This document shows, piece by piece, positions 2,876-56,501 of a stretch of 64,000 nucleotides of DNA (the first letter of the stretch is position 1; each line of letters begins with the position of its first letter). The notes beneath the pieces are model-generated. The model saw only the letters and a list, made by a program, of their open reading frames with translations, made no database searches and was not told the origin of the DNA. The DNA is taken from NCBI GenBank assembly GCA_015146655.1, contig VKHL01000111.1, positions 33,491 through 97,490 of the forward strand, read 5' to 3'. Made by a program: the position numbers and the translations under genes. This DNA is from Ochromonas danica. Lineage: Eukaryota; Sar; Chrysophyceae; Chromulinales; Chromulinaceae.

Positions 2876-3235
2876 CCTGTATATGAGTGAAAACAATTCC
2901 TGGTGTTAATTGTTTTGGATTTCTTTGTGTTGCAATGAGGACCAGACTAGTACTACTCCCCGCGCAATCCAACGCAAAGGAGTCATTTTGTCCCCACGCT
3001 TCGCAATAATATCATTATAACACGCAAAGTAATAATATTACCCCGAAGTGTTGTCACTGTCACACACACAGCGCTGAGTGCGCACCTTGGCTCAACCTTT
3101 TTCTCCAGCAGGGGCTTGGGCTTGTGAGATTCAATCAAACTTCGGGACTTGGTACTCACAGGCGTCTACACTCTCAGTGGAGAAGACTATTACGCTTTGT
3201 CTTTTTCATCTTTATCGACATCATGTCAATCAAAG
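2876..3235. promoter_or_regulatory. Divergent intergenic region between PX gene and FHIP1
   Basis: About 360 bp between two divergently transcribed genes, so it should hold both promoters. It contains a CCCGCGCAA element (about 2959-2967) and a second GC-rich/CGCAA cluster around 3000-3030. The same CCCGCGC heptamer lies upstream of FHIP3, AP-4 sigma and the epimerase gene. A short upstream ATG at 3223 overlaps the proposed FHIP1 start in another frame. No other element is recognised. Confidence 0.35.
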
Positions 3236-6200
3236 ATGTCCTTTTGGAATGATATCCTCGAGAACAAGGTGATCGATCAGCTCTACGAACAAGCGCATTC
3301 AATTCAAGGAACGGAGACCAGTAATGTACCATTATTACTCTTCACCGCCTCCAATGTTGTTCGCGCTGCAGCCATCACTGTTTCTAGTCGAGCACCAGGT
3401 TGGTTTAATTGTGCATCTAGTTTAACATATAAATATTAGTTTTTCAAGTTGTTGTTGTTGTCGTTGTTGTCGTTGTCGCTGTGCGGATGCCGTGTGCTGT
3501 TTGTCTCTGACTAACCCGTGTGTTGCTTGTTCTTCCCACAGGAGGAGGATTAGCTGGGGCACTGACTTCTGTTTGGAACAAAGTGACTGGTGCCACACCT
3601 GTTCTTCCCCCCACAGCCACTGCCGACACAACAGGTCAAGGTGATGATGATTATGGTGTAACAAATGGTGTGGCTGCTGATGACGTCATGGAAGAGAAAG
3701 AAGACCCCGGAGATAATAATTCATCGGAGATCATTCATAGTGCTAATGAATACTATGAGGTGGTGGAGATTGAAGAAGATGACATTTCTTTGTCATCCAA
3801 ACCTGAAATCGAAAAACAAACAACACGAATAATAGAAGAAAGGGAAGCAGTGCCATCAAGAGAAGCGGAGGAGGATCCTTCTGTCGCTTCTCATCATGTC
3901 ACTGTTAACACCCTCGACCCTGCCATTGTGTCTGTGGCTTCTGCATGTGATGCTTCGACTGTGAGGGAAGCAGCGGAGTCTTCTTTAGCAGCAGTCAATA
4001 ACAAATATGCTCTTATCCCATTTACTTCTCACTCTGAGACTCATTCTGAGTCACCTACTATCGCTCGTTTGCCTTCCTTGAATACTGACCTAGATGACGA
4101 ATTAGCCGTTGATCTGATGGATGTCGATCTCTTGGAGAATTTCATCAAGAGTTACTCTCCTGCATGCTCCAGAGAACGACCACATGATGTGGTCCAAGAA
4201 CGACGCATGCTCCATGATTTAATACAAGCAATCACACGCTATTATCGATTAGCCCTGGAGGAACTGGATATAGGCGGTGATCATTGGGATATCAATCATG
4301 TCACTTTACCCGACCATCACGATATTATTGGTTTAAGTAAATCCCTTCGTAATGCTCCCTTCGCTTCACCAGTGCGAGAGCGCAAGACTGAAGAACCCTC
4401 CGGCAGACACACTTTTCAGAAGTTTGCTGAAGGAAGTGTTGGCACTCCACCGCCTTCCCTCTTTGGTTCAATATTTTCCTCCAACCCTCCACCCCAGCAG
4501 TCTTCAAATCCGCAGTCTACCCAGCAGCCACCAACTGCTGTGAGAAATCTGGTGCGCTGCTTGGCAGTGCTGAGAGCCATTGCGAGCACGTTGCTGGGTG
4601 TTGTACGAAGGGCGGAGCTGCAGTCACCCTCCTCCTCCACGTCCTCATCCCGTGTGGCAACAGATTCGAAGTCAGGGTCGGCACGTGCTGCATTGCCTTC
4701 TTCTGCTGTGTCAAGTCTTCGCTGCTGGTGCTGGTTGAGTCATGAGTTTATTCGCACCTTCTTGTTGGGAGCGGTGCGTGAGTCATTGGAGAGCAGTCAG
4801 GAAGGACAGAATGTGGCGGTGTACACAGTGTTGCGAGTGGTGTTGCAGACACTATCGTGGTCAGGGAAGGATGGTGTGCGAGATAGCACAGCGAGCATTC
4901 TAGGGAGCTACGACGGGAGTGAGACCATTCGAGACAGCTCGAATGTCAGCGATGGCAACAATGTTGATGGGAATGGTATTGTCAATGGTGGTGAGGGAAG
5001 CCTGGGATGGAATGGGCCATTGACAAAGATGTCGTTGCTATCCTGGATGTTACGGTTCATGTTGCTAGGTCCATCGTCAATGGAGTTAGTGCAGCGATGT
5101 CTGTTGGCTGAGGTGGAAGGCGGAGAGGTAAGAGGAGGGAGTGTGGAGGCGGAGGATCGAATAGGGGCCTTGGCTGTTGAGAGTGGGTCAGGATATGTAG
5201 GTAGTCCTGAGAGCACTGAGCGGAAGAGAGTGGCGATGGGCGGAGAAAGGGAAGAAAAGGTTAAGCATAAGGAGGAAGCAGTTGCGGTGGGTACTTCGTC
5301 AATAGCTGGTTCATCTTCGTTGTGGTCGGGTGGATGGGGAGAAGGAGAGTTAGTGTGGCTGCTGTGGGATCGCATGGGAAGTCAGTCTCGTCCACTGTCC
5401 TTATCAGCCTCATTGCTGTTGAGTTGTTTGCTGCAACATTCTCCTCCGTTGTTGAGTCTCTCGCATGTTTACTCGTTACCGTATGGGTTAGCCAAGACAC
5501 CAGTATCTGATGAGGTGGATGAGGAGGGTCGAGGGCGACTGGGAGGAAGAATGTTGATGGGGTCAGCCAGAGGAACGGAGAGATCTGCCGGATTCGAGGA
5601 GTTGTTGTCAGGTATGGTGTCATCGTTCGAGAAGAAGGAGAGTGTCTCTGTGGATGAGGTGGGTATTCCAGGCATGAGTGAAGGTGACTGTGCGATGCGT
5701 CGTGCTTATGCGAAGACAGCGTGTGACTTGTTGTCTCGCGTGTTGTTCCACGGAGGAGATGAGTTGCTGTCATTACCATCAGCCTATTTCGATCGTTACT
5801 TGTTTGGTGTGGTGGGTGATGGGAGCAGAGGAGTGTCATCACGGGGCCTGACCATGTCCTCCGGTGTAGGTGATGTGAGTGAGGGAGTCGAAGATGTGAA
5901 GGAGAAGAGCTTCTTGGGTCGTCTGCGTCGTCGATTGCACTTGTTCGCTCATTTGCGCATCTATGAGCAGATCGTGTTGTCTGACTTGGTGCAACAGTGC
6001 ATGTGTGAGTTGAGTGTGGTGATGGTGTTGGGCAGTGAGAAGGCAGCGAGGCGCAGTTTGGAGTTATCTGTGGAGTTGTTGGATGAGGTGAAGGGGTTAT
6101 TGGGCGAGGTTCGTTTGGCAGCGACGAAGCAGGTGGCAGACTTGTCGGGGAAGTGGAGCATGATCGAAGAGCATCTTCGCAATGAAGCTGCTGGTTATCT

Positions 6201-6984
6201 GATTGAGAGAAGACAAGGGTTTGGTGGAAGTCATTTAGTTGGACAATCTAATCCCTCTCCTTGTGCTTTCTTCAATCCTGTCACTACTTTCCTTGCAGGT
6301 GATAGTTTACCTTTCAGCCCTCAGAATAGTTATATTAGTCGTATTTGCCATGGTCAAGCCTCAGCCTTGAGAAAGCATTTGAAACACGAGTCCATGGTTC
6401 AAAAGCAAGTGTTAGCGAACAGTCTAGTCCTCCAAGAGATGATCTGGGAGATGGAAGCTTTCTTATCCGCTGTTCTTGATCTCAGGAACTTCATGAGTTC
6501 GTTATCAAGTCCTTCTATGGATTGTGAACTTCGTGGGAAAGTGTGGGAAGTGGTGGAAGAGGAAGAAGAGCAAGCCAGTGAGCTGGCAGACCTCGCCGCT
6601 CTTCGCAGATGTCTTCACACTCCAACGGCTCCTTGTGGTAGTGATAGTAGTAGCAGTAGCCATAATGGAGATGGACGAGAGTGGCTCATTGCTGATTTGG
6701 ATGGACAAATGGTGGAGTTCTTGAAGGAGTACACGAGCTTGACCATTCGATTGGATCAGATCGTCTTGGATAGTCAAGAGCTTTGTGATAGAGCCATTGA
6801 AGGGTTGGATACTTTGGTGGTCACTGTTGATAATACCGAAGAACTCTTTCTGGAGGAAGCAGCGAAGTTAGAAGCTTTGCTCAATTTGCTCTTCCATTCT
6901 CCTCATCCTGCTGCTCATCCCCCCAACGAACCTTCTGTCAATGAGTCTGAGACAACAGAGGCAACTCATTCAAACCTATTATAA
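3236..6984 (+). CDS. FHIP-family (FAM160/RAI16-like) protein 1
   Basis: Exons 3236-3398 and 3542-6984 give about 1,201 residues. FHIP proteins belong to the FTS-Hook-FHIP complex that links early endosomes to dynein. Family hallmarks: a C-terminal helix LVLQEMIWEMEAFLSAV resembling the animal 'KELAA' helix, the helical stretch around RIYEQIVLSDLVQQ, and overall architecture shared with FHIP3 at 12183-16197. The N-terminal FHIP block, clear in FHIP3, is much reduced here, and an acidic low-complexity stretch follows. Residues encoded by 4501-6162 match FHIP3 exactly while both flanks are strongly diverged. This tract looks more G-rich on the coding strand than its flanks. The ATG at 3236 is the first in frame, but an extra upstream exon is possible. 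Confident on family by motif; exact function is inferred. Confidence 0.7.
4501..6162 (+). repeat. Arm 1 of a 1,662-bp perfect inverted repeat (FHIP1 tract)
   Basis: This stretch of FHIP1 equals, in reverse complement, 13152-14813 in FHIP3. Both arms are exactly 1,662 bp. All shared translated segments, on the sense and antisense frames, are identical, so third codon positions agree too. Identity stops abruptly at both ends inside recognisable but diverged homologous sequence (GSIFSxNP upstream; WSMxExxLR downstream). Positions 5553-6179 are also shared with FHIP2. Confidence 0.9.
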
Positions 6985-7258
6985 GATATTGTATTTACTG
7001 TAGATAGACTATTAGATGGTATTATTTTCGATTTGAACTGGATGTGTGCATTGCATTGTCTTAGTTCTGCCTATTTTAATCATTTAGTGGCTATTGCCAT
7101 GATTGTGAATACAATGGTGATGATGCTTGCTTTGACTTTGCTTTGTATTCACTATCAATTGATTCCGCTAATTCGTCTGTTAATCACTTTGTCACTACTG
7201 CTGCTGCTACTATCTTTGTCATCGTCACTACTTCTAATAAATGTTGTTCATGCATTCC

Positions 7259-10200
7259 TCACCTCGAGGAGGCATGCTCGGCTACAACTTTCTCACTCAA
7301 GGCATTGCTTGCTGGAAGGCGATGCTGGCTTCCTCCGTGGATATAGGAAGCAATACGAGCTGTCGGGCCTTGGCCTTGTGAAGGAATGCCCAGATGGTCT
7401 TTACTGCGATTTTGAAGACTTCGCAGTAAGGCTGTCAACTGGTCGATGCTGGTCACCAATTCTTCATTACGACGAGACAGATTGTCTCTCTAATACAAGC
7501 AGATCAACAACATCACAGTAAGAAGACCAATCAGTTCATGTCAAGGAAGGAGTTAAGCAATGATTGACCTCAACAATAAGCTGCGAGTTTTGTCTAGCCA
7601 GTGATCGCATAACTGACTCTTTTGTTTCCAAGACTATCGCATGTGCTTCTCGGTTTGTGTCTAATTCAGATTGTAGTTGACCAACACGTGATTGTGCCAA
7701 CTCTAAAGAACGAAGAATACTCTGTTCACGATCAGACAAACGAAAACTATTTCGTGATTTAGCAGAGAAAGAAGCACGACTTGATTCATGTCCTCTGCCA
7801 AACCATCCCGCGAAATATCCTCCAGTGGATTGTCGATGTGATTCTTTATCTCCACCAAACCCACTGCTGTTACCACCACTTCCACTGCCAAGCGTAAAGC
7901 TACTGCTTGCAGCCGCTCCATTCGCCAATCGTGCCTAACAGAACCATACCATACCATGACAAAGCTCAGCTATCATCATCATCAAGTTTGCATAACAAGA
8001 TAATAATACTTACATAAACATCTTCCAGCTTCTCTTCTAGCATAGCTCGGGTTTGTTGTTCGTGTGTTAGCTTGACCATTAGACGTTGTACATAAGTTTC
8101 ATACTCCTCGCGAAGCTTAACATACTTCTCCGCATAATTCTGAGCTTCAGCTTGAGCAGATCGAGTCGCAACCTCATGCATAGAGACCGCGCGAGAGAGT
8201 CCTCGGATATCCTGCTCCAGCCTTAGAGTCAGAGTGTGACTTTGTTCTTCCACCACTTGGAGGTCGACATCAAGCAGACTTGCATTATCATCATCATTAC
8301 CATTGTCTTCTCCGCCATTCTCATAGGCAATGGGTCTCTTCTCTGAGTCTTGACTATTCGTCTTCTCCCGACCAAGCAGTCTCTTTATGCTGCTAGTAGT
8401 GCTAGTGGCCTTGGGAGATGCATGTGGAGGAGAAGGAGGGAGAGGTCTGTTGGCATTCGCTCCAGAGGCAGACGGTCGCCTGGGAGGTTTATCAGGAGGA
8501 GGAGGAATAGTTAGTCCTTCCATCCCTTCCACATAAGTAGACGATCTGGACTTGGCCGTCATTGTGTTCTAAACAACATACCACCATTAGCCTAACCATC
8601 ACAAACAAGGAAGCAAGATCAAGATCGCTTACCTTCAAGAGTCGTGCTTCAAGGTCTTGAATGGTCACTCGCAATGCCTCAGCCTCAGAGACCTTTTGCA
8701 GTGCTTGGACATGTTCCTCCGCAGAACGCATTCGTTCCGTCTCAACTTCTTCTTCTAATGCACGAACTCGTGCACGAAGAGCTTCTGTTTCTTCTAGTGC
8801 AGCTTCGTATTGTTGTCTCAACTTGTCCATCTCACGTGAAGCATCAAATGCACTGGATGATGTCATAGAATTCTCTGCATTGGACATGATTGTTGCATTA
8901 GGAAGTGGAGAAGATGATCTACTAATAAATGGCGATAGACTTCTTAAACGTTCAACATCTCCATAATCATCCAGGTCATCCGAACTCATGCCTTGTTTTA
9001 TTTTCTTCTTTAAGATATGAATCTCCTTCTTAGCTGCTTCCAACAGATTCTTGAGCTCTTCAATTGAAAGCTCTTCATTCACTTTAGCATGTGTTTTAAT
9101 CTTCTTTGCTCGTTCACCAAAGCGTAATGTGGATAAAGTCTCTGGTGCATGTGTAATCTCTGGATTACAACAAATGATTAAAGTAGTTTTCGAATTACCA
9201 CCAAGTGCTTCACTGAGTAACATCGTCAGCTTTGAATCACGATAAGGAATATGTTTTGCTCCATCAGCTAAGGCATTAATGACCATTCCTAAGGTAGTTA
9301 ATGAAGAGTTAATATTCTTAGCTTCTTCTAAACGCATACCAGAAGCACCTGTTTTAGACACTTTCTCTGATCCTGCTAAATCAACAAGAAAGAGTTTTCC
9401 ACGTTTACATCGACCAGTCTCACCATGTTTTTGTTCAATACGAATAGAGAAGATAGAATGTGATCTGGAAGATTCTGCATTCATTAATGTTGGTGAAGTA
9501 GCACGATTTGTTTTACCAATTTCAATAATACGGAAACAATCTTCTCTATTCATTACAGAGATTTCTGTTAGATCAGGTAGTAAAAACCCTGCTCCTTTAT
9601 TTTCGCGTATTTTCAAATTCGTTTGTTGTGGATTTAATAAATCACGTATCTTCTCACAATAGATCTCATAATAAGAAAGTACAATTTGAAATTGAATACT
9701 AACATCTGCTTCATGAATAGCATCAAATAATCGATGAATACAACGTGGTAAGATACCTTGTACATCTTGATCATGTAGAGAACTTCCTTCCATTGTATGA
9801 CTTTTCCCTGCTGATGTTTGTCCATAGGCCATGATCGTTCCATTAAATCCAGACAATGTCCCACCAATGACATCTTCTACTTCTTGAAAGATTTGTCGTT
9901 GATTTGTATCATAACCAAACACTTTGTCAAAGGTGAAAGCACGTGTTTCATAAAGGTCAGAGATACATTTCACTACACCAACATGTTCATCAAGTAGGTA
10001 ATTGCCTTGATCATTACTAACGTTATTGTTTCGACCTGGTCGAAAACGACAAATTACACGAATTGTATCACTTGATGGCGGCAGCTGACTTCCTCCTCCT
10101 CCATTACCACTACCAGCACTACTGTTTAACCCTTCTAATAGTTGCGGGGCAGAAGGAAAAGAGTTTAATGATCCGCGACGTTTACTACTACTATTCGTTG

Positions 10201-10408
10201 AATTATTATCATTAAACGAAGTATTAAATACTTGCGGTCCTTCTCCTGGCATGAGACTAGCCCGTCTACGTGTATTAGCAAGCATGACAGGTCCAGCACT
10301 TTCATCTCGTGTTGAGACTAAATCAGAAGAGGAAGAAGTTGCAGTAGTGGGTGTTAAGGAACCTCTTCTTAATCGAATGGAATTCCGATCCTTATTCAAG
10401 GAAGCCAT
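7259..10408 (-). CDS. Kinesin-1-like motor protein
   Basis: Exons (transcription order) 10408-8633, 8568-8014, 7934-7569 and 7489-7259, all joined in phase 0, give about 975 residues. After a Ser/Asn-rich N-terminal extension of about 110 residues comes the kinesin motor: IRVICRFRP start, P-loop GQTSAGKSHT, switch I NAESSRSHSIF, switch II LVDLAGSE, and YRDSKLTMLL. The P-loop Ser-Thr pair and the HIPYRDSKLT region resemble the kinesin-1 (conventional) group, a plus-end-directed transporter. A neck and several coiled-coil blocks follow, interrupted by a Pro/Ser-rich disordered segment. The last exon adds RNEELVTSIDQL-type coiled coil and a short tail. It lies between the two arms of the FHIP inverted repeat, so recombination between them would invert this gene. 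Confidence 0.85.
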
Positions 10409-10731
10409 TTTCGATGATATCAACAAGCCAAGAGCTCTAAGACAGATGATGACAAGGAGAGAGAGAGGACAGGGACAGGGCTAGGAGAGGATAGTCCAGA
10501 TACTATAACAATATGATAGCAATGGGTTGGTATTGTTTCGACGCGATCCTTGCAATTAACCGTGACTTTCCGCCAGATCTCCAGAACGCCAGATCTTCAA
10601 ATATCTAAATATCCAGAATTTGGAATTGGCTCCTTCATCTTGTCTTACATTTGGCTGGTGTGGTACTATAGTTAGACTAGACTATGACATGGTGTTAAAG
10701 CATGTAAAGTCAAGTCAGTTGAGTAAACGCA
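10409..10731. other. Intergenic: kinesin 5' flank and FHIP2 3' flank
   Basis: About 320 bp. It includes GA-rich sequence near 10455-10480, directly upstream of the kinesin start, and a doubled CCAGATCT-like motif at about 10573-10596. I see no gene here. Confidence 0.3.
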
Positions 10732-12018
10732 TTAAGTGATTACTAAGGAATCTAATAGAGATTCAACTTGAGCATATTCAATCAAAAACAATTGACTTTG
10801 CTCATCACAATCCAATCCACCGCCACGAAGTGAATCGAAACTATCTTCTTCCAGATCATTTTCATCTACATCATTGAAACTTCTACCTAGTAGAATACCA
10901 CCTATCTGGAACCAGCTTTGATGAAGTGTGTTTGCAGCAATCAGAAATCCTTGTATTTCCCAACATATCTCATGTAAGACTAACTCAGCGTCAAGAAGCG
11001 AACACAAACTGCTATTGCGTACCTTTCCACTCCAACAAGAGGATATAACAGAAGCCCTCTGAGTACATCTATAACCCCAACCTAGACCCTTCCAATGAAA
11101 GCTCCGCAGTAGACAAGAAGCATGCTTTGCACGAAGATGCTCTTCGATCATGCTCCACTTCCCCGACAAGTCTGCCACCTGCTTCGTCGCTGCCAAACGA
11201 ACCTCGCCCAATAACCCCTTCACCTCATCCAACAACTCCACAGATAACTCCAAACTGCGCCTCGCTGCCTTCTCACTGCCCAACACCATCACCACACTCA
11301 ACTCACACATGCACTGTTGCACCAAGTCAGACAACACGATCTGCTCATAGATGCGCAAATGAGCGAACAAGTGCAATCGACGACGCAGACGACCCAAGAA
11401 GCTCTTCTCCTTCACATCTTCGACTCCCTCACTCACATCACCTACACCGGAGGACATGGTCAGGCCCCGTGATGACACTCCTCTGCTCCCATCACCCACC
11501 ACACCAAACAAGTAACGATCGAAATAGGCTGATGGTAATGACAGCAACTCATCTCCTCCGTGGAACAACACGCGAGACAACAAGTCACACGCTGTCTTCG
11601 CATAAGCACGACGCATCGCACAGTCACCTTCACTCATGCCTGGAATACCCACCTCATCCACAGAGACACTCTCCTTCTTCTCGAACGATGACACCATACC
11701 TGACAACAACTCCTCGAATCCGGCAGATCTCTCCGTTCCTCTGGCTGAACCCATCAACGGATTGCTTGTTGGTGAGTTTTCGGTATTAGCTGGTGAGTAT
11801 AGAAGGCTCTTGGTAATATTGGTAAAGTTCTGGTAAAGTTTCAAGTCCTTTATTTGAACGTGATGAGGTGTGATGAAAAGTGTCTTAAAGTCGCGTAGGA
11901 AAGACAAGTGTGGCAAGACTGCAATTGCTTGATTCCAACACCAATGGAAGAGTCGCATAATGCCATGACGAGCACATGACACATTTAGGAACAGCAGCTG
12001 GATAATGGAATTCTCCAT
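10732..12018 (-). pseudogene. Truncated FHIP-family copy (FHIP2), probable pseudogene or short paralog
   Basis: A single reading frame of 428 residues. The first 85 or so residues have no clear FHIP match; the next 209 residues (11132-11758) match the C-terminal part of the FHIP1/FHIP3 tract, and the end again shows family signatures: LVLHEICWEIQGFL and a final LIEYAQVESLLDSL helix like those ending FHIP1 and FHIP3. The N-terminal FHIP block and about 340 residues of the middle region are missing. Just upstream, in another frame (about 12094-12020), a peptide QEIFAVIKDYWEFYI resembles the LIRAIGDYYTQSIIEL segment of FHIP3, consistent with a decayed or spliced 5' end. Either a pseudogene refreshed by conversion or a short expressed paralog; transcript data would decide. 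Confidence 0.55.
11132..11758 (-). repeat. 627-bp partial copy of the FHIP conversion tract in FHIP2
   Basis: Reverse complement of 5553-6179 in FHIP1 with a single difference that I can see (the base corresponding to 5562). It shares with FHIP1 the final 17 bp (6163-6179) that FHIP3 lacks, so its 3' end came from, or gave rise to, the FHIP1 version. Confidence 0.85.
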
Positions 12019-12182
12019 ATTGAATATAGAATTCCCAATAGTCTTTTATCACCGCAAAGATTTCTTGGACTTGTATTTGTGTTTTGCGATTCACCATAAA
12101 GTGTATGCGAAATGATCAATTCAAGTGCGTTATTAGTTAACGCCAATCTTCACACTATCACTACAGCCATAAAGCAATCATT

Positions 12183-15100
12183 TCAGCACGCAGCAACAAT
12201 AGCATCGAGTGCTGCTTCCAATTCTTTATATTCAAGCAAGAACTGAGCTTCACGACCATCTATGTCAGCGAGCATTAAAGGTTTCCTGTCCATCACAGAG
12301 CTGTGGTTCACAGAATCTTGAAAAGAAAGAGAGCTAAACATGGTGCCTTTCGTGTTGAGAGCTGTTAGCATTCCTTCTATTAGAGCTTGATCAGATCGGT
12401 AATCACTCTCCTCGAATGTATCAGAAGTGATTCCAGTTTTACCATTTGATTGAGACAAAACAACTATTTCGGAGGACCCTTCGCCGTATTCCTGCTCAAG
12501 GTTATTACTATCATTGTAGGTTGAAACAAAACAACGCAGCTTCTGCACTGCAGAGATATAGCCTTGAATCTCAAGCGCAATCTCTTTCAAAACAAGTGCA
12601 GTCGTCAAAATAGCTTTACAGTGACTGGGTTCACTCTCTAGACGTCGGCGTAAAATTTGATAAGACGAACCATTTTTGGTTGGCTGGGTAGCTGAAGGCC
12701 TCAACTGGCCAGAAGAGGTTGACAGATTGTTCCGTCTTTGATCTTTGGAGTCAACCTTAACCACATTAGTGCTCACAGCCGTTGATTTTAACGAAGAACC
12801 GGATAATGTTGCAGGATCAGGCAAATTATCAAACAGATTTCCGGTCAATAATTTTGAAACTGGACTGAATGTCATGGAAGCCAAGAAGCTCGTTTGCTTC
12901 TTGACAGATGCAGGATTTGTATTTTGATTCCCCTTAACGCTACCAGAACTTAAAACTGGAGCGCTTGAATGATTAGACGAATATGGCTCACAAACATCCC
13001 CTGCTGACTGCACATGGGAAGCAACGACAGAAGGAGTCTTCGTACTGCCACTTTCAGAAGAAGGGTCAGATATAATCTCACCATTTTCATGAACAGAATC
13101 AATCTCAGAACACAAAAACTTCCTTGTTTCTAAACGCAAATACTTCTCAACCATGCTCCACTTCCCCGACAAGTCTGCCACCTGCTTCGTCGCTGCCAAA
13201 CGAACCTCGCCCAATAACCCCTTCACCTCATCCAACAACTCCACAGATAACTCCAAACTGCGCCTCGCTGCCTTCTCACTGCCCAACACCATCACCACAC
13301 TCAACTCACACATGCACTGTTGCACCAAGTCAGACAACACGATCTGCTCATAGATGCGCAAATGAGCGAACAAGTGCAATCGACGACGCAGACGACCCAA
13401 GAAGCTCTTCTCCTTCACATCTTCGACTCCCTCACTCACATCACCTACACCGGAGGACATGGTCAGGCCCCGTGATGACACTCCTCTGCTCCCATCACCC
13501 ACCACACCAAACAAGTAACGATCGAAATAGGCTGATGGTAATGACAGCAACTCATCTCCTCCGTGGAACAACACGCGAGACAACAAGTCACACGCTGTCT
13601 TCGCATAAGCACGACGCATCGCACAGTCACCTTCACTCATGCCTGGAATACCCACCTCATCCACAGAGACACTCTCCTTCTTCTCGAACGATGACACCAT
13701 ACCTGACAACAACTCCTCGAATCCGGCAGATCTCTCCGTTCCTCTGGCTGACCCCATCAACATTCTTCCTCCCAGTCGCCCTCGACCCTCCTCATCCACC
13801 TCATCAGATACTGGTGTCTTGGCTAACCCATACGGTAACGAGTAAACATGCGAGAGACTCAACAACGGAGGAGAATGTTGCAGCAAACAACTCAACAGCA
13901 ATGAGGCTGATAAGGACAGTGGACGAGACTGACTTCCCATGCGATCCCACAGCAGCCACACTAACTCTCCTTCTCCCCATCCACCCGACCACAACGAAGA
14001 TGAACCAGCTATTGACGAAGTACCCACCGCAACTGCTTCCTCCTTATGCTTAACCTTTTCTTCCCTTTCTCCGCCCATCGCCACTCTCTTCCGCTCAGTG
14101 CTCTCAGGACTACCTACATATCCTGACCCACTCTCAACAGCCAAGGCCCCTATTCGATCCTCCGCCTCCACACTCCCTCCTCTTACCTCTCCGCCTTCCA
14201 CCTCAGCCAACAGACATCGCTGCACTAACTCCATTGACGATGGACCTAGCAACATGAACCGTAACATCCAGGATAGCAACGACATCTTTGTCAATGGCCC
14301 ATTCCATCCCAGGCTTCCCTCACCACCATTGACAATACCATTCCCATCAACATTGTTGCCATCGCTGACATTCGAGCTGTCTCGAATGGTCTCACTCCCG
14401 TCGTAGCTCCCTAGAATGCTCGCTGTGCTATCTCGCACACCATCCTTCCCTGACCACGATAGTGTCTGCAACACCACTCGCAACACTGTGTACACCGCCA
14501 CATTCTGTCCTTCCTGACTGCTCTCCAATGACTCACGCACCGCTCCCAACAAGAAGGTGCGAATAAACTCATGACTCAACCAGCACCAGCAGCGAAGACT
14601 TGACACAGCAGAAGAAGGCAATGCAGCACGTGCCGACCCTGACTTCGAATCTGTTGCCACACGGGATGAGGACGTGGAGGAGGAGGGTGACTGCAGCTCC
14701 GCCCTTCGTACAACACCCAGCAACGTGCTCGCAATGGCTCTCAGCACTGCCAAGCAGCGCACCAGATTTCTCACAGCAGTTGGTGGCTGCTGGGTAGACT
14801 GCGGATTTGAAGAAAGAGGGTTAGGGGAGAATATTGAACCAGATACTCCATTTATTGGTTGTGCTCTGCTTGGTCCATGAGAGGATAACTGTGGGGTAGT
14901 AGACCAAGCTGATTGTGCGGTGGGTTTGGACAAAGGAGAACCTAAACCTGCAGGTAGTCCACCCGCACCAACTTGAACAGGAAGAAGAATAGAGAAATAG
15001 TCAGGATATTCATAATTATTGGAGCTTTTCTGATTATCTCCATTATTGTAAGGAAAAGAAAAACCAGCCGAGGAGGAAAAATAAGCCTGAAGCTCAATGA

Positions 15101-16197
15101 TTGATTGCGTGTAATAATCACCAATTGCTCGAATCAGATGATGTGCGAAAAGAGTTTCTTCCACGAGATATTCAGTTACGCGCGAGTCATTTAAACTGAG
15201 AGCAATTAAAAGCGACTCTAAGGCATAATGAGAGACTTTAGGCTCTTCTAATAGGGGAATTAAGCCACTCAATAAGTCAAAATAGACACGCTTGGGAGCC
15301 AAAGGGGTTAGAGACCATGACGGCCTCCTGGACGTAGACACGCCACTTTAATCAGGAAAAAAGGATTAAAACCCTTCAGAACAACAAAACGGGATGATCA
15401 ATAGAGAGAAGCTCACCGAGTGCGTTGAGAAACAATGAACAAATCCAACACTGGAGGATTCTCAGTGACTTTTCTCCACAGAGTTCGCAAGAGAGAGCAT
15501 AGTCCAATTTCTAAAGTTTTCACAGATTAAGATTAGCTCGCTTTAAGTAAGGGATGGATTCAAGCTTACTAATGCGTCGCTTGTAGGAGGCTACGCGTTC
15601 TTGATCACTACCCGCTGACGAAGTAAAGACTGCATCGTATCTGGTAGCAACGGATATAAGATTGCTGATCGGCTTGTATACAGATTGATGGGGTAACAAA
15701 GGATACTTAATCACACGAAGAAGGCTTGACAGCGTACTGAGCATGAGTGGCATTGTGCCTCTGGGGAGGTCATTCATTCCTCTCTGACAAAGTTGTTGAA
15801 TCACATGCTTTTGCAACAGGTAATCCAGTATAGGAGTCTTCACTTCCTCATCACTATAGTCTATATTTTCATATCCTAGCTTTCTCTGTGCTTCTAACCA
15901 CATCTTATCATCATTTTCTAGCATTGCTATCATCTTCTTAAGACTTCCTCGAACACCCGCTTTCTGAAGCCGATTATCAGCTTCTGTAGTATCAGCATCA
16001 TACAGATTCGCTTCTTGGTCTAAGTACTTACAAATGAGAAGAAACAAATTTTCGAACTCTTGCTCTGGTCTAACATGAGAGGAGTGTTCCGACGAAAAGG
16101 AGACTGTAGTGGATTGGACTACGTTAGAAATCAGTGTGGCACTTTTCTTTGCGAAATTAATTGCCGATCCCTTGACTTTAGTAAAATAGTTTTTCAT
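12183..16197 (-). CDS. FHIP-family (FAM160/RAI16-like) protein 3, full length
   Basis: Exons 16197-15570, 15510-15417 and 15345-12183 (introns of 59 and 71 bp, phases 1 and 2) give about 1,294 residues. The N terminus carries the classic RAI16/FHIP block: ILDYLLQKHVIQQL, then DLPRGTMPLML, then YPLLPHQSVYKPISNLI, matching the 'LLHHKILETL...PPGMKQQVL...QPLLPHINVHRPVQKLI' pattern of animal FHIP2. The small second exon encodes GLCSLLRTLWRKVTENP...LDLF, the next family helix. The C terminus has LVLKEIALEIQGYISAV, equivalent to the KELAA helix. The middle (13152-14813) is the tract shared with FHIP1. Expected role: adaptor between endosomes and dynein via FTS-Hook. This copy is the best reference for the cluster. 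Confidence 0.8.
13152..14813 (-). repeat. Arm 2 of the 1,662-bp perfect inverted repeat (FHIP3 tract)
   Basis: Reverse complement of 4501-6162. The two arms are separated by 6,989 bp containing the end of FHIP1, the kinesin gene, FHIP2 and the end of FHIP3. Length is identical with no indels seen. The antisense strand is open for more than 300 codons across it, a by-product of composition. Confidence 0.9.
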
Positions 16198-16757
16198 CGT
16201 GAAGATCTAATCGCGATGAAAGGAGAAATCGAAATGGTTTGACAATTTATTTCCTCTTTGTTCTTCCCACCAGAACCTCTTTTGCCCATCACATCTGCCA
16301 GTATCCCGCGCAAAACAACAACATTGCAACTCCACTTTGATCAATGATGATGATGTCTACTGGATATCTAAGGATCTTAGTGGTGGTGGATGATGTAACA
16401 AATATAATACCATATTCAAAAAAAGAATGTCTAGTTTATTAACAACGATCTCTAAACACAACTCATCCAACATATTGGATGAAACAAGGTCATCTATCGA
16501 GTCTTGTTGAAGCAACGATATATATATACAAAACACGTAAGCAATAGTTTCTATTCAACAACAGATCGCACAATCCTAAACCAAGCACATTACAAAAAGT
16601 AAGTTCAGTTAATGCTAACTCATGATAGGCTCTTAGCCACCAGCATATACCGAATCATCTTTCATTTACGAAGATGGCCACAGAAACAACACAACAATAG
16701 CCAACAACCTAAACGACAAGTTACAGCGAAAAATAACGGAGGGCTCAGAGAATATGA
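16198..16757. other. Intergenic: FHIP3 promoter and FHIP4 3' flank
   Basis: About 560 bp. A CCCGCGCAA element lies at 16305-16313, about 108 bp upstream of the FHIP3 start. A short (AT)n run sits near 16518-16527. No coding signal on either strand that continues a neighbouring gene. Confidence 0.3.
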
Positions 16758-19699
16758 TCAATCCAAATTCTCTCGATGGCCCAACTCTGTATATGTATGG
16801 AAGTTCATTAATTCCCTCACGAACTCCTCCTCAAAAACTTCTTCAGCATTATCCCACGAAAATGGTTGCGAGTGTGTGAAGGAATTACGTTTTTCATCAT
16901 TTCTCATTCGCACAAGTTCGCATAATGGAATCAAATCCTTAACTACAGCGGCTGGCTCTTCCAATGAATCTACACAATCATAGGACTCCGAGCTTAATTG
17001 AGGCTTCAAAGTGGGTAGCATGGCACAGCGCAAGATAGAATGGGAGTGGAATATGGTTCGAAGCTTTTGGACCGCCACCAAACAAGACAGAGCTTCTAGA
17101 TATACCTCATCCAAAATTACTAAACTACGAATGATGTCTTTCTCGTCACCACAAGCTTCATAAGCCTGCAAAGATTCAGTCCTCGTCCTTGTTGGCGTCT
17201 TTCGATCAACTCTGGTGTGGCCATCGACAGAAACAATAGAACTATCTCTTTCGAGATTGCTATCTATAGAAGGAGACGAAGACGAAAATAGACCAAAGAA
17301 CTTGCTCAATGAAGATCGACGCTGGGCAGGAGGCGAAGTATTACATGGTTTAGCATTCTCTTTAGTCTCTTCACAAAGTGATGATGCATCGTCTTTCCCC
17401 ACGAACAACATCCCTTCTTTCTGCATGTAAGAATGGACTGCTTCCACTGCAGCCTTATGCTTCTTTTCATCGATGACCGGAATCTTTGATAATATGACGC
17501 TGCGCACTTTCTGCAGTTCCTTAAGAACTTCCTCCAAAACTGCGAGATGCTGTTTGGCAACCACCTCAGATCCCAGGATCATAAGAACAGCCACCAGGAC
17601 TAAGGATTCTTGGAATAAAGCTGATAAAGCTATCTGCTCTTGTACAAGGAGGTTATCGAATGTCAAGAACTTTCGAAACAGTCGATCAAAAAACGAGCAG
17701 TCACCGGAGGTCGATAACAGTCGATGATGACTGACATCCATATGATGTGAACGAAATCGAATATGACGGTATCTATCAAAAAAGCCAACTGTCATATTTA
17801 GCAAGCCGTCACAATCGGATAACAAAAGCACAACCACTTCGTGACTCATTGCTGCTGCGTATTCTTTGATCGTCAACGGAACAGGTTGATGTTCAACAAA
17901 TAGAGATTGGCGTCTCAAGTTGCGAATGGAAGCATCATAAAGAATATTTACGTTTGCTGTAAAGCTTCCTTGAAAAACGGAGAGTAATGGCTTGCTTTGT
18001 GTCAGAGCACGAAATAACACGTTTCTACCTGCTGCCTGCTGTCCCTCCTTTAACGGTCCGTACAGCAAATGCAGACCAGCCAGGGGCGGGGTTGCTTTCA
18101 AAAGGGTAGACAAGAAAGCGATCGCAGCCATAGCAGTAGGTTTACAAAGGGAACCCACTCGACCCCAAGCTAGATCCACTAGTATGCTCTTTAGTATATG
18201 TTTCACAGTCAAACTCAACAAAGACTGCTCTGATTCGCTCCATGATACATCATCATTCTCTTCTTCTACCAGTACATGTTTCGATGAAGCACTATTACCA
18301 GAGCAATATAACGTGTTGAGAGAGAGACTAAGCATTATGTAACCAGCTACCAAGTCTTGTTCTTCTGCCACGTCTAACATCTTGTTCAAAACTGGGTGAA
18401 GAAACTCCCAAAAGAAATCATGGGAAATATGTGATAGGGCAATCCATTTCGCTCGCGCTTTTGAGCCTTTACCAGTGCGCATAGGGAGAATAGGCTGCTT
18501 GGCGGATCTTAAGAGCGTGCCGTGAACACTTGCAATAAGTGTGAGAATGCGCAGATAACGATGAACTTTCTCGATCACGATCTGCTTAAAGAACGCTTGC
18601 TCTTCTTTGTTAACCTTCTCTTTGTCAAAGCTAACTTTTCTCAACGGTATTGCTGAAGTTGAAGAGGAGAGGAAGACTTGCAAATAGTCTGGTACCTCAC
18701 TTAGTATATCTGCATGCTCCTTCATAACTTCAAAGGCTTCAAAGAAGCTACTTTGTAAATTGAGAATCCAATGCCTAACATAATCATGTCTCGAAGAAAA
18801 ATAGCCAAGCATGTTTGGATCTTGAGTGTTGCATGCAACTAACAATGCCTGATGAGCAAAATGGAACGTTGACTGCTTCTGAACTAACATAAACAGAGCT
18901 GCAAGAACATCAATATTGCAATCATTGGCCAGCCTATGTTTATAAACTGTGTTTAGGGAAGGAAACAGCAAATACGTTTTAATGAGAATGAAGGAAAAGA
19001 CTGACATTGGGTTCGTCGATACGAAAGCATGGAGACATTTCGTTTCCAGAGCGATCTTTTTCCATAGCGATAGTAAGAACTCTGACAAGTTTATCTCTGA
19101 GCACACATAAGTAATTAGCCAAAAAGGAGTTATTTTGTGAAAGAATGCCTGCAGTACCTACCTATGCGTCTCAAGTAGTTGGAATAGACCACAGCATCCT
19201 CTTCAAAGCAATTATCAAAGATTTCTTCATATCTCATAGCAACATTGATGAGTTGTTTAATAGGATTAACAATGGTTGCCGTGAGGAGAAGCGGATAACT
19301 TGAACAATCCAGAATCGCAGTCAGCGTGTTCATCAATATAGGCATACTACCACGAGGTATGTCTTGGACAGCACGATTACACAAAGTATACATCATAATG
19401 GAGTCAACAATACACGGCTTGGCCACCGAGTCAAAATGAGCATCTGCCACAATTCTCTCTTTCTTCCACTTACTGTCATCGTTAGCAATCATATCAACCA
19501 ATAATCTCAACTTGGGTTCCAAGGAGGAACACATGTTCAATGTTTCCTCACATAGACGATCTGCTATAGGAAGAATAGCTAGATTCTCAAAAGCTCGATC
19601 AATATCAGCAAAGAGGTAATCTATATCCTCATTATGACCCAATGACCGTTCTGGATTGTTCTTGCTGTTTGTTCGTTGTGAGAAGAGTCCACGCAACAT
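16758..19699 (-). CDS. FHIP-family (FAM160/RAI16-like) protein 4, diverged
   Basis: Exons 19699-19162 and 19096-16758 (65-bp intron, phase 1, at the same place as the first intron of FHIP3) give about 958 residues. The N terminus has the family block: SIMMYTLCNRAVQDIPRGS, then LTAILDCSSYPLLL and NPIKQLINVAMRYEEIF, aligning with FHIP3. Exon 2 opens with SEFLLSLWKKIALETK, equivalent to FHIP3 exon 2. Downstream are FFDRLFRKFLTFDNLLVQEQIALSAL-type helices, and a C-terminal LDEVYLEALSCLVAVQKLR helix like the KELAA segment. Unlike FHIP1-3 it has none of the homogenised tract: the corresponding region is diverged and shows the base composition of ordinary genes here. It serves as an outgroup for dating the conversion. 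Confidence 0.75.
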
Positions 19700-20130
19700 G
19701 AGCTGCTCACTCACGGTGGAACAAATATGAGAAAGCCTTTATTCTTTATTGAAGAGCCTATATAAAATCTCCACCTGTGGGACAGTTTTTTCTTTCCAGT
19801 AAATCAATCTGCAATTGATGATCGCAGAACAACGCCTTCCACTGTATACCCCACGCAAATTGTACTAGTCAAAACTGCAGTGAATTTGCATGCAATCATA
19901 TTAGACATCACCCGGGGAAAGCTATGACATACTGCTGTAGCTACTGTATGTAGATCAGTCTTGTAGTTTTAACTGAGAGCTTCCAGCAAAAGTGAATTGA
20001 CATTGCTATTCTGTGAATATTAGGAAGATTGATGTTCAAACCATTTAACATTACATTTCAACATTACAGAAAGATATGTGGTTTGTTTTTGCGACGAAAG
20101 CTGCTTGATATATATATATATACTGGAGTA
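19700..20130. other. Intergenic: FHIP4 5' flank and MINDY 3' flank
   Basis: About 430 bp without a convincing gene. It holds an (AT)n run near 20109-20122 close to the end of the MINDY gene. No further signal recognised. Confidence 0.3.
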
Positions 20131-42444: not shown

Positions 42445-42921
42445 TTACAAGCTACAGGCAACTGGACCTTTCTTGGTTACAGATTCAACAACGTCATGCT
42501 GACCGGATGGAACACTGGAAGGCTGACCAGATGGTTGACCAGAAGGCTGAGTGCTAGGCTGCCCAGAAGGTGCACCAGAGGGCTGGCCGGAAGGCTGACC
42601 CGAAGGCTGCACACTCGGCTGACTCGAAGGCTGGCCAGAAGGCTGACCGGATGGAACACTGGAAGGCTGACCAGATGGTTGACCAGAAGGCTGAGTGCTA
42701 GGCTGCCCAGAAGGTGCACCAGAGGGCTGGCCGGAAGGCTGACCCGAGGGCTGCACACTCGGCTGACTCGAAGGCTGGCCAGAAGGTTGACCGGATGGAA
42801 CACTGGAAGGCTGACCAGATGGTTGGCCAGAAGGCTGAGTGCTAGGCTGCCCAGATGAAAAGGGAAAAGAGCGTACAGTACACCCCCTGGAAGATGACGA
42901 AGGAAGAAGATGTTGGAGCAA
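42445..42921 (-). CDS. PSGQPS-repeat protein fragment (surface-protein type)
   Basis: A minus-strand frame of 158 residues, about two thirds of it a Pro-Ser-Gly-Gln tandem array of four-residue units (PSGQ, PSTQ, PSSV, PSVQ, PSGA). Such repeats are known to me as linkers in large secreted or adhesive proteins of stramenopiles; this is from memory of the pattern, not a search. Here there is no signal peptide, no neighbouring domain and short unrelated ends, so the frame is probably a remnant or an exon of a gene whose other parts I cannot find. The opposite strand is open too but gives an Arg/Leu/Thr-rich product without features. Confidence 0.35.
   Translation of the reverse strand: MLQHLLPSSSSRGCTVRSFPFSSGQPSTQPSGQPSGQPSSVPSGQPSGQPSSQPSVQPSGQPSGQPSGAPSGQPSTQPSGQPSGQPSSVPSGQPSGQPSSQPSVQPSGQPSGQPSGAPSGQPSTQPSGQPSGQPSSVPSGQHDVVESVTKKGPVACSL
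42497..42857. repeat. Tandem array: 144-bp higher-order unit of 12-bp repeats
   Basis: About 360 bp made of 12-bp units, grouped into a 144-bp (48-residue) higher-order unit present about 2.4 times. In the minus-strand translation the unit runs from GQPSTQPSGQPSGQPSSVPS to PSGQPSGQPSGAPS and then restarts with the same order. Copies differ at only a few bases, so expansion is recent or maintained. Confidence 0.85.
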
Positions 42922-43283
42922 TAGGTGGAGTCATGCAGTTCAAAACAAGATCTTCTTCAAATCATTTTGATCAACCACAGTGTTGGATTCTCTGAAGAAC
43001 GACATGGTCTAGACCATCTCCTTCTTCTTCTCCTTCCACGTCATCTTGAGAAGCATAGTCAGGAATACAGTCTATACAGTCCCTAGCTATCCTCTAGACT
43101 CTCATTGTTCTGTTTTGCTTTGCTTTCATAGAGTCTGAGCTCATAATTATTGGATTTTAAGTAATACACTGAGCAGTTAAGTCCCGAACGTAAAAGTCTT
43201 ATTTATCTAGTTTCAACTCACTTCCTACCATGCAAGAATGCAATTGTTGATTGATTCACTCACTTCTGAGTAAACAAACAACA
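42922..43283. other. Intergenic upstream of dihydroorotase
   Basis: About 360 bp with no recognised gene; an in-frame TTG leads into the dihydroorotase but the first ATG is at 43284. Confidence 0.3.
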
Positions 43284-51200: not shown

Positions 51201-54200
51201 CAATCATCTTATCAATCCTTACAGTTGAAATGTGCTGAATTGGAGAAGTTCTACCTCACAGTGCAAACGGAGAAACAACGAGGAGAACATCAATCTGCCA
51301 TGAAGATCCTGGACTTGGAACATACTCTACAGGAGCTACAAGGAAGATTGGAAGACACCAAATTACAATTAACCAGCAGAATCTCTTCATTACAAGAAAA
51401 CGAAGAAATTCGAATGAAACTTACATCAGATTTGAATACCACGAGAGAGAATAAAGAAAGTCTGGAAGAAACTTGTTCAACTCTCAAAGAAGAAGTTCAA
51501 AAACTTTTGCAAACAATTTCCAACAGAGAGATGGAAGTAAAAGAACGAGATGAACTCATTCTTTCATTAAAACAAGATCGAGAAACATCTGAACTATTAC
51601 AAGGAGATCAACATTCTTTACTGAAGAAGAGAATTCATAGTTTAGAAGAGACACTTCTTCAAACAGGTGAATCATGGAAGAAGACACAAGCTGATCTACA
51701 AGCTGCTAATAGTCAATTTGCTGCAAAGGAGAAAGAACTTCATGAAAGAAATCTCTTGCTTCAGAAAGCACAAGTGAATATCGAAGATTTGAATAGACAA
51801 ATTAGAGCATTGACTACAGGACAAGAACAGTTGGAATCTGAGAAGGTTGTTCTCTTGGAGAACTTGGCCAAGCGAGAACAACATCAACTTTCAATAGACG
51901 AGGAACTTGCTCATGTTAAAGCAAGTAAAGAAGAGCTTCTAAGAAATGTTGAGCAACTCACTGATCAACTCAATCAAGTGAATCATGACTATCGACAAGC
52001 ACAACGAACTATTGAAAATATGCAAAGTCGGATAAGTGAAATGGAAAATAATGCCATCGCCAACAATTCAAAACAAATTGCATTGCATTCTGAGCTGGAA
52101 ACCACAAAACAAACAGTGGTAGACCTCACAGCTGAAATATGTCGATTGAAGGATCAATTACAGGCTACAGAAGATCGAATGGAACAAGAAAGCACATCTT
52201 TCCTACAGAAGCTGCAAGCAGTACACAATCAGCTCACTAACCAACAGGTAAGGATTCTCCCATGAATGCTAGTACTTTCTAGTCTGTTAGTAATAATGGA
52301 ATTGACTTGTCATCCTTTAGGATCAAAATCGTTTGAAAGTGAATATGTTGAACGAGACAATTAGTGAAAAAGATGTGTTGAATAGTGCTCTAGAACGAGA
52401 GATTTCCTTCCTGTCCAATAAAATAGAGAATTTAGAATTATCCTTACGACGAGCACAAGAGCAGGTGTGTTAGACCTATCCTGTCTCTTACGATGTTTAG
52501 CATGATCTGACATGAGCATGAATGATGATGGACAGGCTGAGAAAATGGTGGACGCGGATCAAGTTGGTCAAGAGATTCTTTCCTATCAAAGCGAACTGGA
52601 TCGTCATCGTTCACAACAAGAAATGCTTTACAATAAGATGCTTGAGCTTGGTAAGAAATTGACATTATCTGAAGAAGAAAAATCGTCATGTTTGCAAGCA
52701 CTCGATCGAATGGTTTTTTCTTTACAAGACAATACGCAACTTGTAGATGTTGTCAATATCCACGGTGGAGGTAAGTGCGGGAACTATCAACAGCAATGCC
52801 AGTGTTATATCATAGTATACATATTGCGCTGTATAATAGATGTCAAAGAATACGCAAGTACTGTGGAGACTGTGGTTTCTACAGTGAGCAGTAAATTGAA
52901 GCAAATGGAAGATTACCTGCAAGCTCTACTAGAGACATTCTCAGTCTCATTGGAGACTGTTAGTGATGAAAGCAAGACTGCTCGTGAGACAGAGGACAAT
53001 GGACTATTACCATCCCCTTCAATACTGCGAGAACAAGTGCAAAGACTTGATCGATTACAAGCGTATTCCACCACCAATCTCATTGACCAACGGTTATATA
53101 CCCTGCGTGATCATGTGAAAGTATTATCACAACAATTGAAGACTATGATTGAATCAAAGAATGAGTTAACTCAACGATATCAAGAAACAACAGCTAATTT
53201 AGAGCAAACATCCTCTTCCTTGTCATCAACGAAGCTGTCTTTGGAATCTTGTCGAGATGAGGTTGATCTCTATCGAGTTAAATATGAGAAACTAACAGCA
53301 GATTATCAGACATTGCAAAAGGATCATAAAGAAGAGGTTCATCATCTTCATAGCACGTTAACTAATGCAAAGATTCAAGCTGTACAAGAAGTAGAAGCAG
53401 ACTTTGTCTTGAAAAGAGAGAATCTGCGATTATCACATGAAAAGAGAGAATCTCAGCTTACACAAACCATAGAACAACTAAATGAAGCTATTGACAAAGG
53501 AAAGCAAGCAATAAGAGAACTGCAAGAAGTTAAATCAAGTCAAGAGGTCATAATAACAAATCAATCAAATGAGATCTCGACCTTATCTTCTCAGATTGTA
53601 ACATGGCAAGAACAATATCAACAAGAAGAAAGTCTTCTTCAAGATGCTCAGTTGCAAATAACAACCATGAAGGAAGAGCTTCTTCTACTTCAAAGGCAAT
53701 TGGATAGTAAAGATCGTAGTCTGGAGTTACTACTCGAGCAAAAGCATTCCCTGGAGAAATCATTGTATCGCACAGAAAGTGATTTGAATGAAACACAGGA
53801 GAAGTTACAAGAAACAACGACAAGACTACAAGCTAATCTGAAGGACTTGCAACAACAACATGATAATCTCAGTATGCATTTGAGACTGAAAGGAGAAGAA
53901 TTAGCACAAGCGAATAGTGAAAAGGTGAGAGACAACATTAAGAATCAGCACCATCATCTCATCTCTGTTGTTGCTTTATTGATGCGATTCTAGGCTTCGT
54001 TACGTCAACAATTAGAAGAGACCTTGAAGAAAGGGAGAGAAAGTGAAGTAGCCGCAGAGTCCAAGGCCAATGACCAACAGATGGAGATCCGTGATCTTCG
54101 ACAACGCTATGAGAAGAGTCAACAGCTGGTCTCTATGAAAGAACAAGAAGTCTTACGACTAACAGATGAAAAGGTTGATCACTTTATTCTCTCTGTCTAT

Positions 54201-54947
54201 GGAATAGATAATGATAATGATAATGATAATGTCTGCTGATATGATGTGATTGCATGATGTTGTTGATTTTAGAATGAATTGTCAGAACAATATGAAACAA
54301 TCATGAATAACTGGCAAGAAGATCAAGAAGAACATGAGAAACAATTGAAAGTTCTACAAGAAGAAGTGAAAGATCTTGCTCATAATAATACGAAACTATC
54401 CTCTAAGCTATCAGATCGTGAGAAAACACTCGAAGACTTACTGATGGAAAAGAAGACATTAACACGTCAATTAGAAGACAGTAGTGAACAGTTTGGCAAA
54501 GATGAAGCTGAATGGACGAAGCAATTACAGACATTACAAATACAACAACGAGATCTACAACATGCTTATGAAAAACAGAGTATTCTCATGGCTAGTAAAG
54601 ATCGCGAGATTAATCGATTCAAGGAAGAAAAGGTAAACAAACGAATTGTTGTTTCAATTCAAATGGTAATTAGACTTCCTAATTGAATGTTTGTGTGTAT
54701 GTGTGTGCTTGTGTGGAAGATTTTCATTCTTCAACAATTGGAGGAATTGACTTCCAAGCAGGCTGAGTCAGAACGAAATCATAGTTTAACGAGTAATGCT
54801 CTTCAAGTGGAACTCCGAGAATTAAAGATCAAATATGAGAAGACAGTAGCGCACTTGTCCATTCGTGAAGAAGAATTAGCTGTCACACAGACTGCTAAGG
54901 TATGCTAGGTTTTCCTTTTTCTTGATTATTGATCACCAAAGGGTAAT

Positions 54948-55024
<77 letters not shown>

Positions 55025-56501
55025 AGTCTGAGGTAGATAATACTCTGGAGCGTATGATTCGTGAGAGCAATCAGCGAGAAGCATCACTTTCCCAAGAAAT
55101 ACAGAAACTGCAAATGGAGAACCGGCAATTGAATCATCGCTTGGATAAGGCATTAGCACAACAACAAATTCAAAAAGAAGAGATAGAACGTTATCAAACA
55201 GAGAAGAACTCTCTGGAGCAACAATTAGAAGAGACCTTGAAGAAAGGCAGAGAAAGTGAAGTAGCCGCAGAGTCCAAGGCCAATGACCAACAGATGGAGA
55301 TCCGTGATCTTCGACAACGCTATGAGAAGAGTCAACAGGTAGTCTCTATGAAAGAACAAGAAGTCTTACGGCTAAGAGATGAGAATAGTATTCTATCAGA
55401 ACGTAATCAAAACTCTCTTTCTCGTTTACAAGAAGAAGAATCCAATCGTTTAAAGGAAGTGAATGAACTACAACGAGAAGTTAGTCAATTAAAGACTACC
55501 TATGAAGAAGTTGTGATTCAGTGTAATAAAGCAGAGAAAGAGTTATTGAAGATGTCTAAGGATAAGGTGAGAACATTACATCACATTACATTGCATTGCA
55601 TTATATTGTATTGCATTACATTGCCAACTGTCGCGTGCACACATGCTCACATGCTTTCCATCTCTCTCTGTCGGTCTCTCTGTCTGTGTCTGTGTCTTGT
55701 CTCTTTTGTTTGATGTGATATTAGATGTCTGTGGATCATCAACTGGAAGATATATTAGTCCAATACACAGAGATGGAAAGTAGTCTAAGCAAGGAATTAC
55801 ATATTTTACAATCGTCTCATAGAGACTTACAACATCTTCATGATAAACATAGTATTCTCTTGTCAAGTAAAGAACGAGAGAATCATCGATTGAAAGAAGA
55901 AAAGGTAACAACACACTATCCTATCCTCTATGTCCATTCGTTGGTTAGTCTACTAACCTTTTCCTCTCATTCATTGGTGTACTTGTCAACCAATGTTAGG
56001 CATCTATAGAGAAGCAGTTAGAAGGTGTTTTGTCACGATCACGTGAAGAAGAAGATGAACATGCTCGTCATCTAGCAGGCATGCAAAGTGAGAATCGAGA
56101 CCTTAAGTATAAAGTTGACAAATATAGCAATCTATTTAATACAAAAGAACAGGAACTTGGCAAGCTTCTCATAGAAAAGGTAAAACAAATTACTTTTTTG
56201 TCATTGATATAAGAAACAGGGAATTGATTGAATATCAAATAACGTGTGTTATTGCTTCATTGATGTGATTAGAACTCTCTGGAGCAACAATTAGAAGAGA
56301 CCTTGAAGAAAGGCAGAGAAAGTGAAGTAGCCGCAGAGTCCAAGGCCAATGACCAACAGATGGAGATCCGTGATCTTCGACAACGCTATGAGAAGAGTCA
56401 ACAGGTAGTCTCTATGAAAGAACAAGAAGTCTTACGACTAACAGATGAAAAGGTACAGTAGACTATGTGCTATTTCTTTGTTAACAATTGACATTTTGAC
56501 A

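Follow-up and report, generated by a model that had tools for sequence, protein, structure and literature searches.

A perfect inverted repeat within FHIP-like genes of Ochromonas danica is probably a long-lived gene-conversion island with a coding-strand G shift

FHIP / RAI16-like proteins (PF10257) are described as the dynein cargo-adaptor subunit of FTS-Hook-FHIP (PMC8730729). A 64,000-nucleotide stretch of the Ochromonas danica genome (positions 33,491 to 97,490 of contig VKHL01000111.1, assembly GCA_015146655.1; hereafter the window) contains a local cluster of four FHIP-like genes, termed A to D. A 1662-bp coding tract in gene A recurs without any difference, in inverted orientation, in gene C, and part of it is nested in the short gene B, while the remainder of these genes has diverged. 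The last homogenisation of this tract was recent, since there are 0 differences in 1662 bases, and the tract probably represents a long-lived gene-conversion island of the cluster.

The copy in gene C is the reverse complement of the copy in gene A with 0 mismatches over 1662 bases (Table 1), which places the upper 95% bound for A–C differences in the tract at 0.0018 per site. The original prediction, made from the letters of the window, of a 1,662-bp perfect inverted repeat thus held for 1662 of 1662 bases, with no fixed differences between the arms. When the tract was used as a query against the whole 31.2 Mb assembly, matches appeared at three places, each on the same contig as the window, and no additional copy or donor beyond A, B and C was found. 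The third match, in gene B, spanned 610 bp of the query with one mismatch inside. The exact copy in B comprises 617 bases in comparison with A and 600 in comparison with C; at its left end a single mismatch (5562) is followed by nine further identical bases, which extend the copy to 11758. The reading frame of the tract is the same in A, B and C. Accordingly, the two-copy picture drawn earlier was right about the A and C arms but had overlooked the third copy in B and the paralog D. Because these exist, the cluster is a three-way exchange (A, B and C) among four FHIP-like genes. No further perfect repeat of 1662-bp size was seen in a background sample of 237 kb, taken as three pieces.

The three copies do not share one right edge. 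A and B stay identical for 17 bp beyond position 6162, where C differs at 7 of the 17 positions; A–B identity ends at 6179, and both A–C and B–C identity end at 6162. Because A–B identity reaches further than either comparison with C, gene A would appear to be the hub, or common partner, of the exchanges. We considered the possibility that one copy had overwritten the others during assembly or polishing, with which the perfect identity would agree. Yet such a collapse should leave one common edge, whereas B and C have different ends relative to A, and all three genes preserve the frame. Furthermore, reads from truly diverged paralogs could hardly be merged, and the cluster lies well inside a contig of 97,490 bp. 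An artefact is therefore very unlikely.

Outside the tract, amino-acid identity in the detected matches was 27–30% overall: 29% between B and C (72 columns), 29% (184 columns, 5' exons) and 27% (92 columns) between C and D, and 30% over 153 columns in the 3' flanks of A and C, in keeping with the strong divergence of the flanks that had been predicted. At the DNA level, similarity falls immediately outside the edges. In the 300 bp left of the tract, A and C agreed at 172 of 256 aligned columns (0.672), a score equalled by 40 of 200 shuffles; in the 300 bp on the right they agreed at 183 of 241 columns (0.759), equalled by 1 of 200 shuffles, indicating a faint residual similarity. Right of the A–B tract, 45 of 200 shuffles scored equally. 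Short homologous words persist, such as GGTTCAATATT directly left of the tract in A and C. The flank DNA thus resembles its counterpart no more, or barely more, than shuffled sequence does, and has diverged too far to recombine homologously. In A and C, the adjoining sequence stays collinear and in register at both edges; in B it does so only downstream of the right edge. A near-identical tract between diverged, in-register homologous flanks, the pattern of ectopic gene conversion, is thus present at both edges for A–C and on the right side only for B.

These findings, 0 of 1662 differences between diverged in-register flanks, are best explained by the recent homogenisation through ectopic conversion between paralogs that had been proposed. 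In the simplest history, A on the plus strand and B and C on the minus strand would have originated by an old duplication, and homologous repair would keep overwriting the middle of the domain, which would then evolve as one common sequence. The simplest route would be synthesis-dependent copying, with A on one side and its inverted counterparts C/B on the other. The flanks would have drifted until homologous pairing could not cross them, which would have fixed the sharp edges, while the middle, recopied repeatedly since the duplication, would never have diverged. Had the middle diverged as far as the flanks, a first conversion could scarcely have got under way there, and this favours continuous homogenisation. 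It is also possible, judging from the arrangement of the arms, that the segment between them with the kinesin gene (6163-13151) inverts and so occurs in two orientations; a crossover between the arms would also exchange the 3' parts of A and C.

The tract differs in composition from the genes that hold it. For comparison, the 237 kb sample was cut into 282 half-overlapping 1662-bp windows; the analyses of flank composition, silent sites, all-position G and codon usage took 11142-11758 as the tract in B, 10 bp off the exact copy. GC content was 0.535 in the tract, against 0.465 and 0.454 in the A flanks and 0.431 and 0.422 in the C flanks, and the sense-strand GC skew was +0.35, confirming the earlier remark that the tract looks GC-richer and G-skewed. 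The five highest absolute skews among the 282 windows all overlapped the copies in A, B or C, and the 99th percentile, with tract windows included, was 0.218. At fourfold sites, G made up 35% in the tract versus 10–15% in the four A and C flanks, and C made up 14% versus 16–24%. In the tract, 64 of 75 lysine, glutamate and glutamine codons (NNR) ended in G, compared with 71 of 167 when the flanks of A and C were pooled (p=3e-10; 95% confidence interval of the odds ratio 3.7–17.6). No rise of C was detectable in codons of the NNY type (D, N, H, C, Y, F), with 25/66 versus 64/216 (p=0.23; odds ratio 1.45, 95% confidence interval 0.77–2.67). G was also higher at the first and second codon positions of the tract.

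The source to which the original prediction had ascribed this composition was symmetric GC-biased conversion over many rounds. In its favour, GC content clearly exceeds the 0.42–0.465 of the flanks, raised G+C has been described in the converted regions of BEX/WEX/GASP (PMC1274310), and the interval at NNY codons leaves room for a modest gain of C. If such a bias were the source, silent G and silent C should both be raised in the tract. Only G was, at NNR codons, and fourfold C did not exceed that of the flanks; symmetric bias is therefore not supported and, as the sole cause, it is contradicted. We regard it as quite unlikely; of the earlier proposal, many rounds of conversion remain likely, and the symmetric bias does not, as only coding-strand G is raised. 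Mammalian histone and Hsp70 genes reportedly gained G+C by GC-biased conversion, strand asymmetry not being stated. As in that case, the composition of the converting paralogs departs from that of the genome, but here the departure concerns coding-strand G only.

The codon usage of the tract is foreign as well. The Kullback–Leibler (KL) divergence from the pooled genes was 0.244 for the tract, beyond the maximum of 0.143 among 51 sampled frames, and the values for the A flanks (0.038), the C flanks (0.052) and gene D (0.033) were ordinary; that of the B 3' flank (0.202) is inflated by its small size, about 136 codons. The tract is alien to all three of its host genes, which could indicate a single recent replacement, whereby a segment of foreign codon usage (from a lost paralog or by introgression) entered one FHIP gene and was then copied once to the others. 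Yet the strand-symmetric dinucleotide signature of the tract is no outlier (above 90% of the 282 windows and 84% of the 51 frames), and the assembly contains no donor or extra copy. Moreover, homologous replacement of C would need to initiate where hardly any usable DNA identity exists, although the tract lies in register. We therefore hold a single replacement to be unlikely and prefer repeated conversion within the cluster.

A composition island would be trivial only in a mere recipient of a copy; since every holder has it, the donor must have it as well. Even in A, the likely donor, the composition of the tract is therefore foreign to the gene. The limits of the island were located by a two-changepoint fit to third-position G that was blind to the repeat. 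The fitted island spans codons 328-887 in A, where the tract occupies 330-884. For C, the corresponding values are 181-748 and 178-732. For B, they are 95-302 and, for the exact tract, 99-304.7 (starting at 95.7 if the ten bases including the mismatch are added). At five of six edges, the fit is no more than 4 codons from the tract edge. The log-likelihood gain in A was 42.8, and the maximum across 100 shuffles was 10.6. Among 69 sampled open frames of at least 300 codons in the 237 kb, A, C and B held ranks 1 to 3 (42.7, 42.4 and 20.4), the next value being 13.5.

Homogenised copies also occur elsewhere in the genome. An inverted light-harvesting pair (C166:18001-21500, at 538-1607 and 1779-2848) is identical at 1070 of 1070 bases, with a 171-bp spacer, and copies related to it on C10 show 89% identity across 597 bp. 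A head-to-tail light-harvesting array (C224:8001-17500) has a unit of about 2,407 bp, with copies 99.8–99.9% identical. The inverted C166 pair and the tandem copies at about 99.9% lend support to conversion as the explanation of the FHIP tract. Tandem genes around C2:24783-29463, whose products look secreted by eye, comprise two copies 98.2% identical over 1207 bp and about 79% identical to a third, and are possibly another conversion family. Genome-wide, light-harvesting matches numbered 47, counted as matches and not as genes, and one locus gave a partial match to a silicon transporter; together these point tentatively to a photosynthetic, silicifying stramenopile, perhaps a diatom.

Several observations weigh against the interpretation of the tract as a conversion island. 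In C, the right changepoint overshoots the tract edge by 16 codons, and its support interval (735-753) just excludes 732. Counting G at every codon position shifts the left edges into the tract, by 50 bp in A and 36 bp in C; the tract edge falls just outside both intervals. In B, the stretch rich in G by this count continues well beyond the right edge, although only 5 of 50 fourfold sites in the B 3' flank have G. In a four-letter fit, the start of the best segment lies within the tract, by 223 bp in A and 262 bp in C, and its end overshoots the tract by 79 bp (A) and 76 bp (C). The left flank of B has no clear homology to A or C, so that register is unsupported there. In the inverted C166 pair, G occupied 10% of 68 fourfold sites, i.e. 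there was no G shift. The tract is also long, 1662 bp as compared with mostly 50–200 nt in Caenorhabditis (PMC3966223). Finally, repeated conversion since the duplication, like the copying direction and the repair pathway, is what we infer from one assembly of one strain, not what was observed.

For the gain of G specifically on the coding strand we raise, as a doubtful proposition, that long-term conversion between these genes carries a strand-asymmetric bias, with repair or copying in the island favouring coding-strand G, unlike GC-biased gene conversion, and that the edges of each such island can be read from silent-site composition alone. The inverted C166 pair indicates that conversion is not a general cause of a G shift in this genome, and the G shift was accordingly rejected as a general conversion effect. 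Translational selection for G-ending codons found no support either: light-harvesting stretches on C10 and C166 prefer C or T at fourfold sites, and C224 is mixed (G 26%). A role of G-quadruplexes was likewise dismissed, as there was no strict motif and relaxed GG-motifs numbered 12, versus a mean of 13.6 in 200 shuffles. Rad51 has a pairing preference for GT-rich DNA. The keto skew of the tract was 0.24, against a sampled 99th percentile of 0.158, and such a preference is an idea for the cause of the composition.

Direct selection on the DNA, for instance through an overlapping antisense gene, might also keep the copies identical, and an antisense open stretch of 299 codons does lie inside the tract. 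This stretch is, however, no more than chance would give with the codons used (P=0.09, 500 synonymous shuffles), two antisense frames had no Pfam match at E 0.1, and gene D does without the sequence. Antisense or dual coding was therefore rejected, and selection at the DNA level appears most improbable.

The positions of the genes and of the tract copies are collected in Table 1. Gene A has a short 5' exon within 3128-3439 and a long open frame of 1157 codons (3511-6984), with a likely GT-AG intron, recognised by eye. By eye, too, C and D apparently have a common intron position after the residues RRI. Exon 1 of gene C matched the RAI16-like family PF10257 with 33.8 bits (cut-off 24.9) and was the only genome-wide match at E 0.001. 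A, B and D, on the other hand, all fell below the PF10257 cut-off, with no Pfam match of their own for A or B, and are assigned only through their resemblance to C and to one another. With the main frame of D as a genome query, A (30% identity), C (30%) and B (38%) were retrieved through matches within the tract region, and there was no other match at E 0.01. In D, the region corresponding to the tract lacks the identical sequence and is ordinary in composition. The 5' side of gene B (11749-12045, minus strand) is very short, and B is possibly a truncated gene into which the tract was copied. The frames within 7536-8568 would belong to the kinesin gene by adjacency. Solved structures gave two chance-level matches only (E 0.31 and 0.82), and the predicted structure (mean predicted local distance difference test, pLDDT, 33) was too poor for use in family assignment. 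A scan of viral contigs returned 83 stretches that fit a pattern, of which 0 were confirmed, and no relative was found; Rfam on the window gave nothing above gathering scores.

Table 1. Positions of the FHIP-like genes, the kinesin gene and the tract copies in the window
Feature	Position	Strand	Basis or remark
FHIP-like gene A	3128..6984	+	Open reading frame list, homology to C and D
Homogenised tract, copy in gene A	4501..6162	+	Identical to C across 1662 bases
Stretch of A exactly common to B	5563..6179	+	617 bp, 17 bp beyond the A–C edge
Kinesin gene between A and B	7536..10480	-	Pfam Kinesin E 6.8e-105 on the 8492-10480 frame (motor domain)
Gene B, short FHIP-like paralog, ends diverged	10732..12045	-	Open frame of 437 codons; open reading frame list, homology
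Homogenised tract, nested copy in gene B	11132..11748	-	617 exact bases versus A; to 11758 with one mismatch
FHIP-like gene C	12183..16206	-	5' exon in 15520-16206, long frame 12183-15347
Homogenised tract, copy in gene C	13152..14813	-	Exact sequence match to A
Gene D, fourth paralog without the identical tract, ordinary composition	16758..19738	-	Homology, composition

Two repeats were noted elsewhere in the window. An array at 42474-42929 contains many 12-bp repeats, and at 53992-56451 a 181-bp stretch occurs three times (92–98% identical to the middle one, spaced by 1213 and 1066 bp) within a coding region that looks coiled-coil-like by eye and also contains a long GT run.

Related systems have been described. 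In the mammalian BEX/WEX/GASP genes, sustained conversion keeps one part of the gene alike, with chimaeric genes and elevated G+C in the converted region (PMC1274310). As here, the genes are neighbours that have otherwise diverged; their common part, however, is a 5' untranslated region element, one example being 91% identical over 383 b (PMC1274310), whereas here 1.66 kb of perfect coding sequence occurs in inverted copies and nested among three genes, the shift being in G only. In Caenorhabditis, conversion likewise takes place between adjacent paralogs, inverted or tandem, and surviving tracts of mostly 50–200 nt ranged from 12 to 2958 in one study, which names 'terminator mutations' and divergent selection as opposing long tracts (PMC3966223). 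A composition island, present here, is not mentioned for those tracts in the accessible part of that paper (PMC3966223). These sources thus already document concerted evolution of part of a gene with elevated G+C, as well as conversion between neighbouring paralogs in inverted orientation. The tract described here exceeds most in length, is coding, is perfect with respect to A in both other copies, and is marked by a strand-asymmetric shift. A literature search, judged by its listings, yielded no report that we recognised of a strand-asymmetric conversion bias, which is no proof of absence in print.

Whether old conversion islands have a substitution bias of their own is hard to judge when tract and flank cannot be compared within one gene. 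In this cluster, three genes each hold the island and diverged flanks in one reading frame and so provide internal controls for the composition of the converted part. The outcome, a rise in G but not in C, is not what the standard symmetric bias would produce. The island also illustrates how one part of a protein can be held uniform among paralogs while the remaining parts diverge freely.

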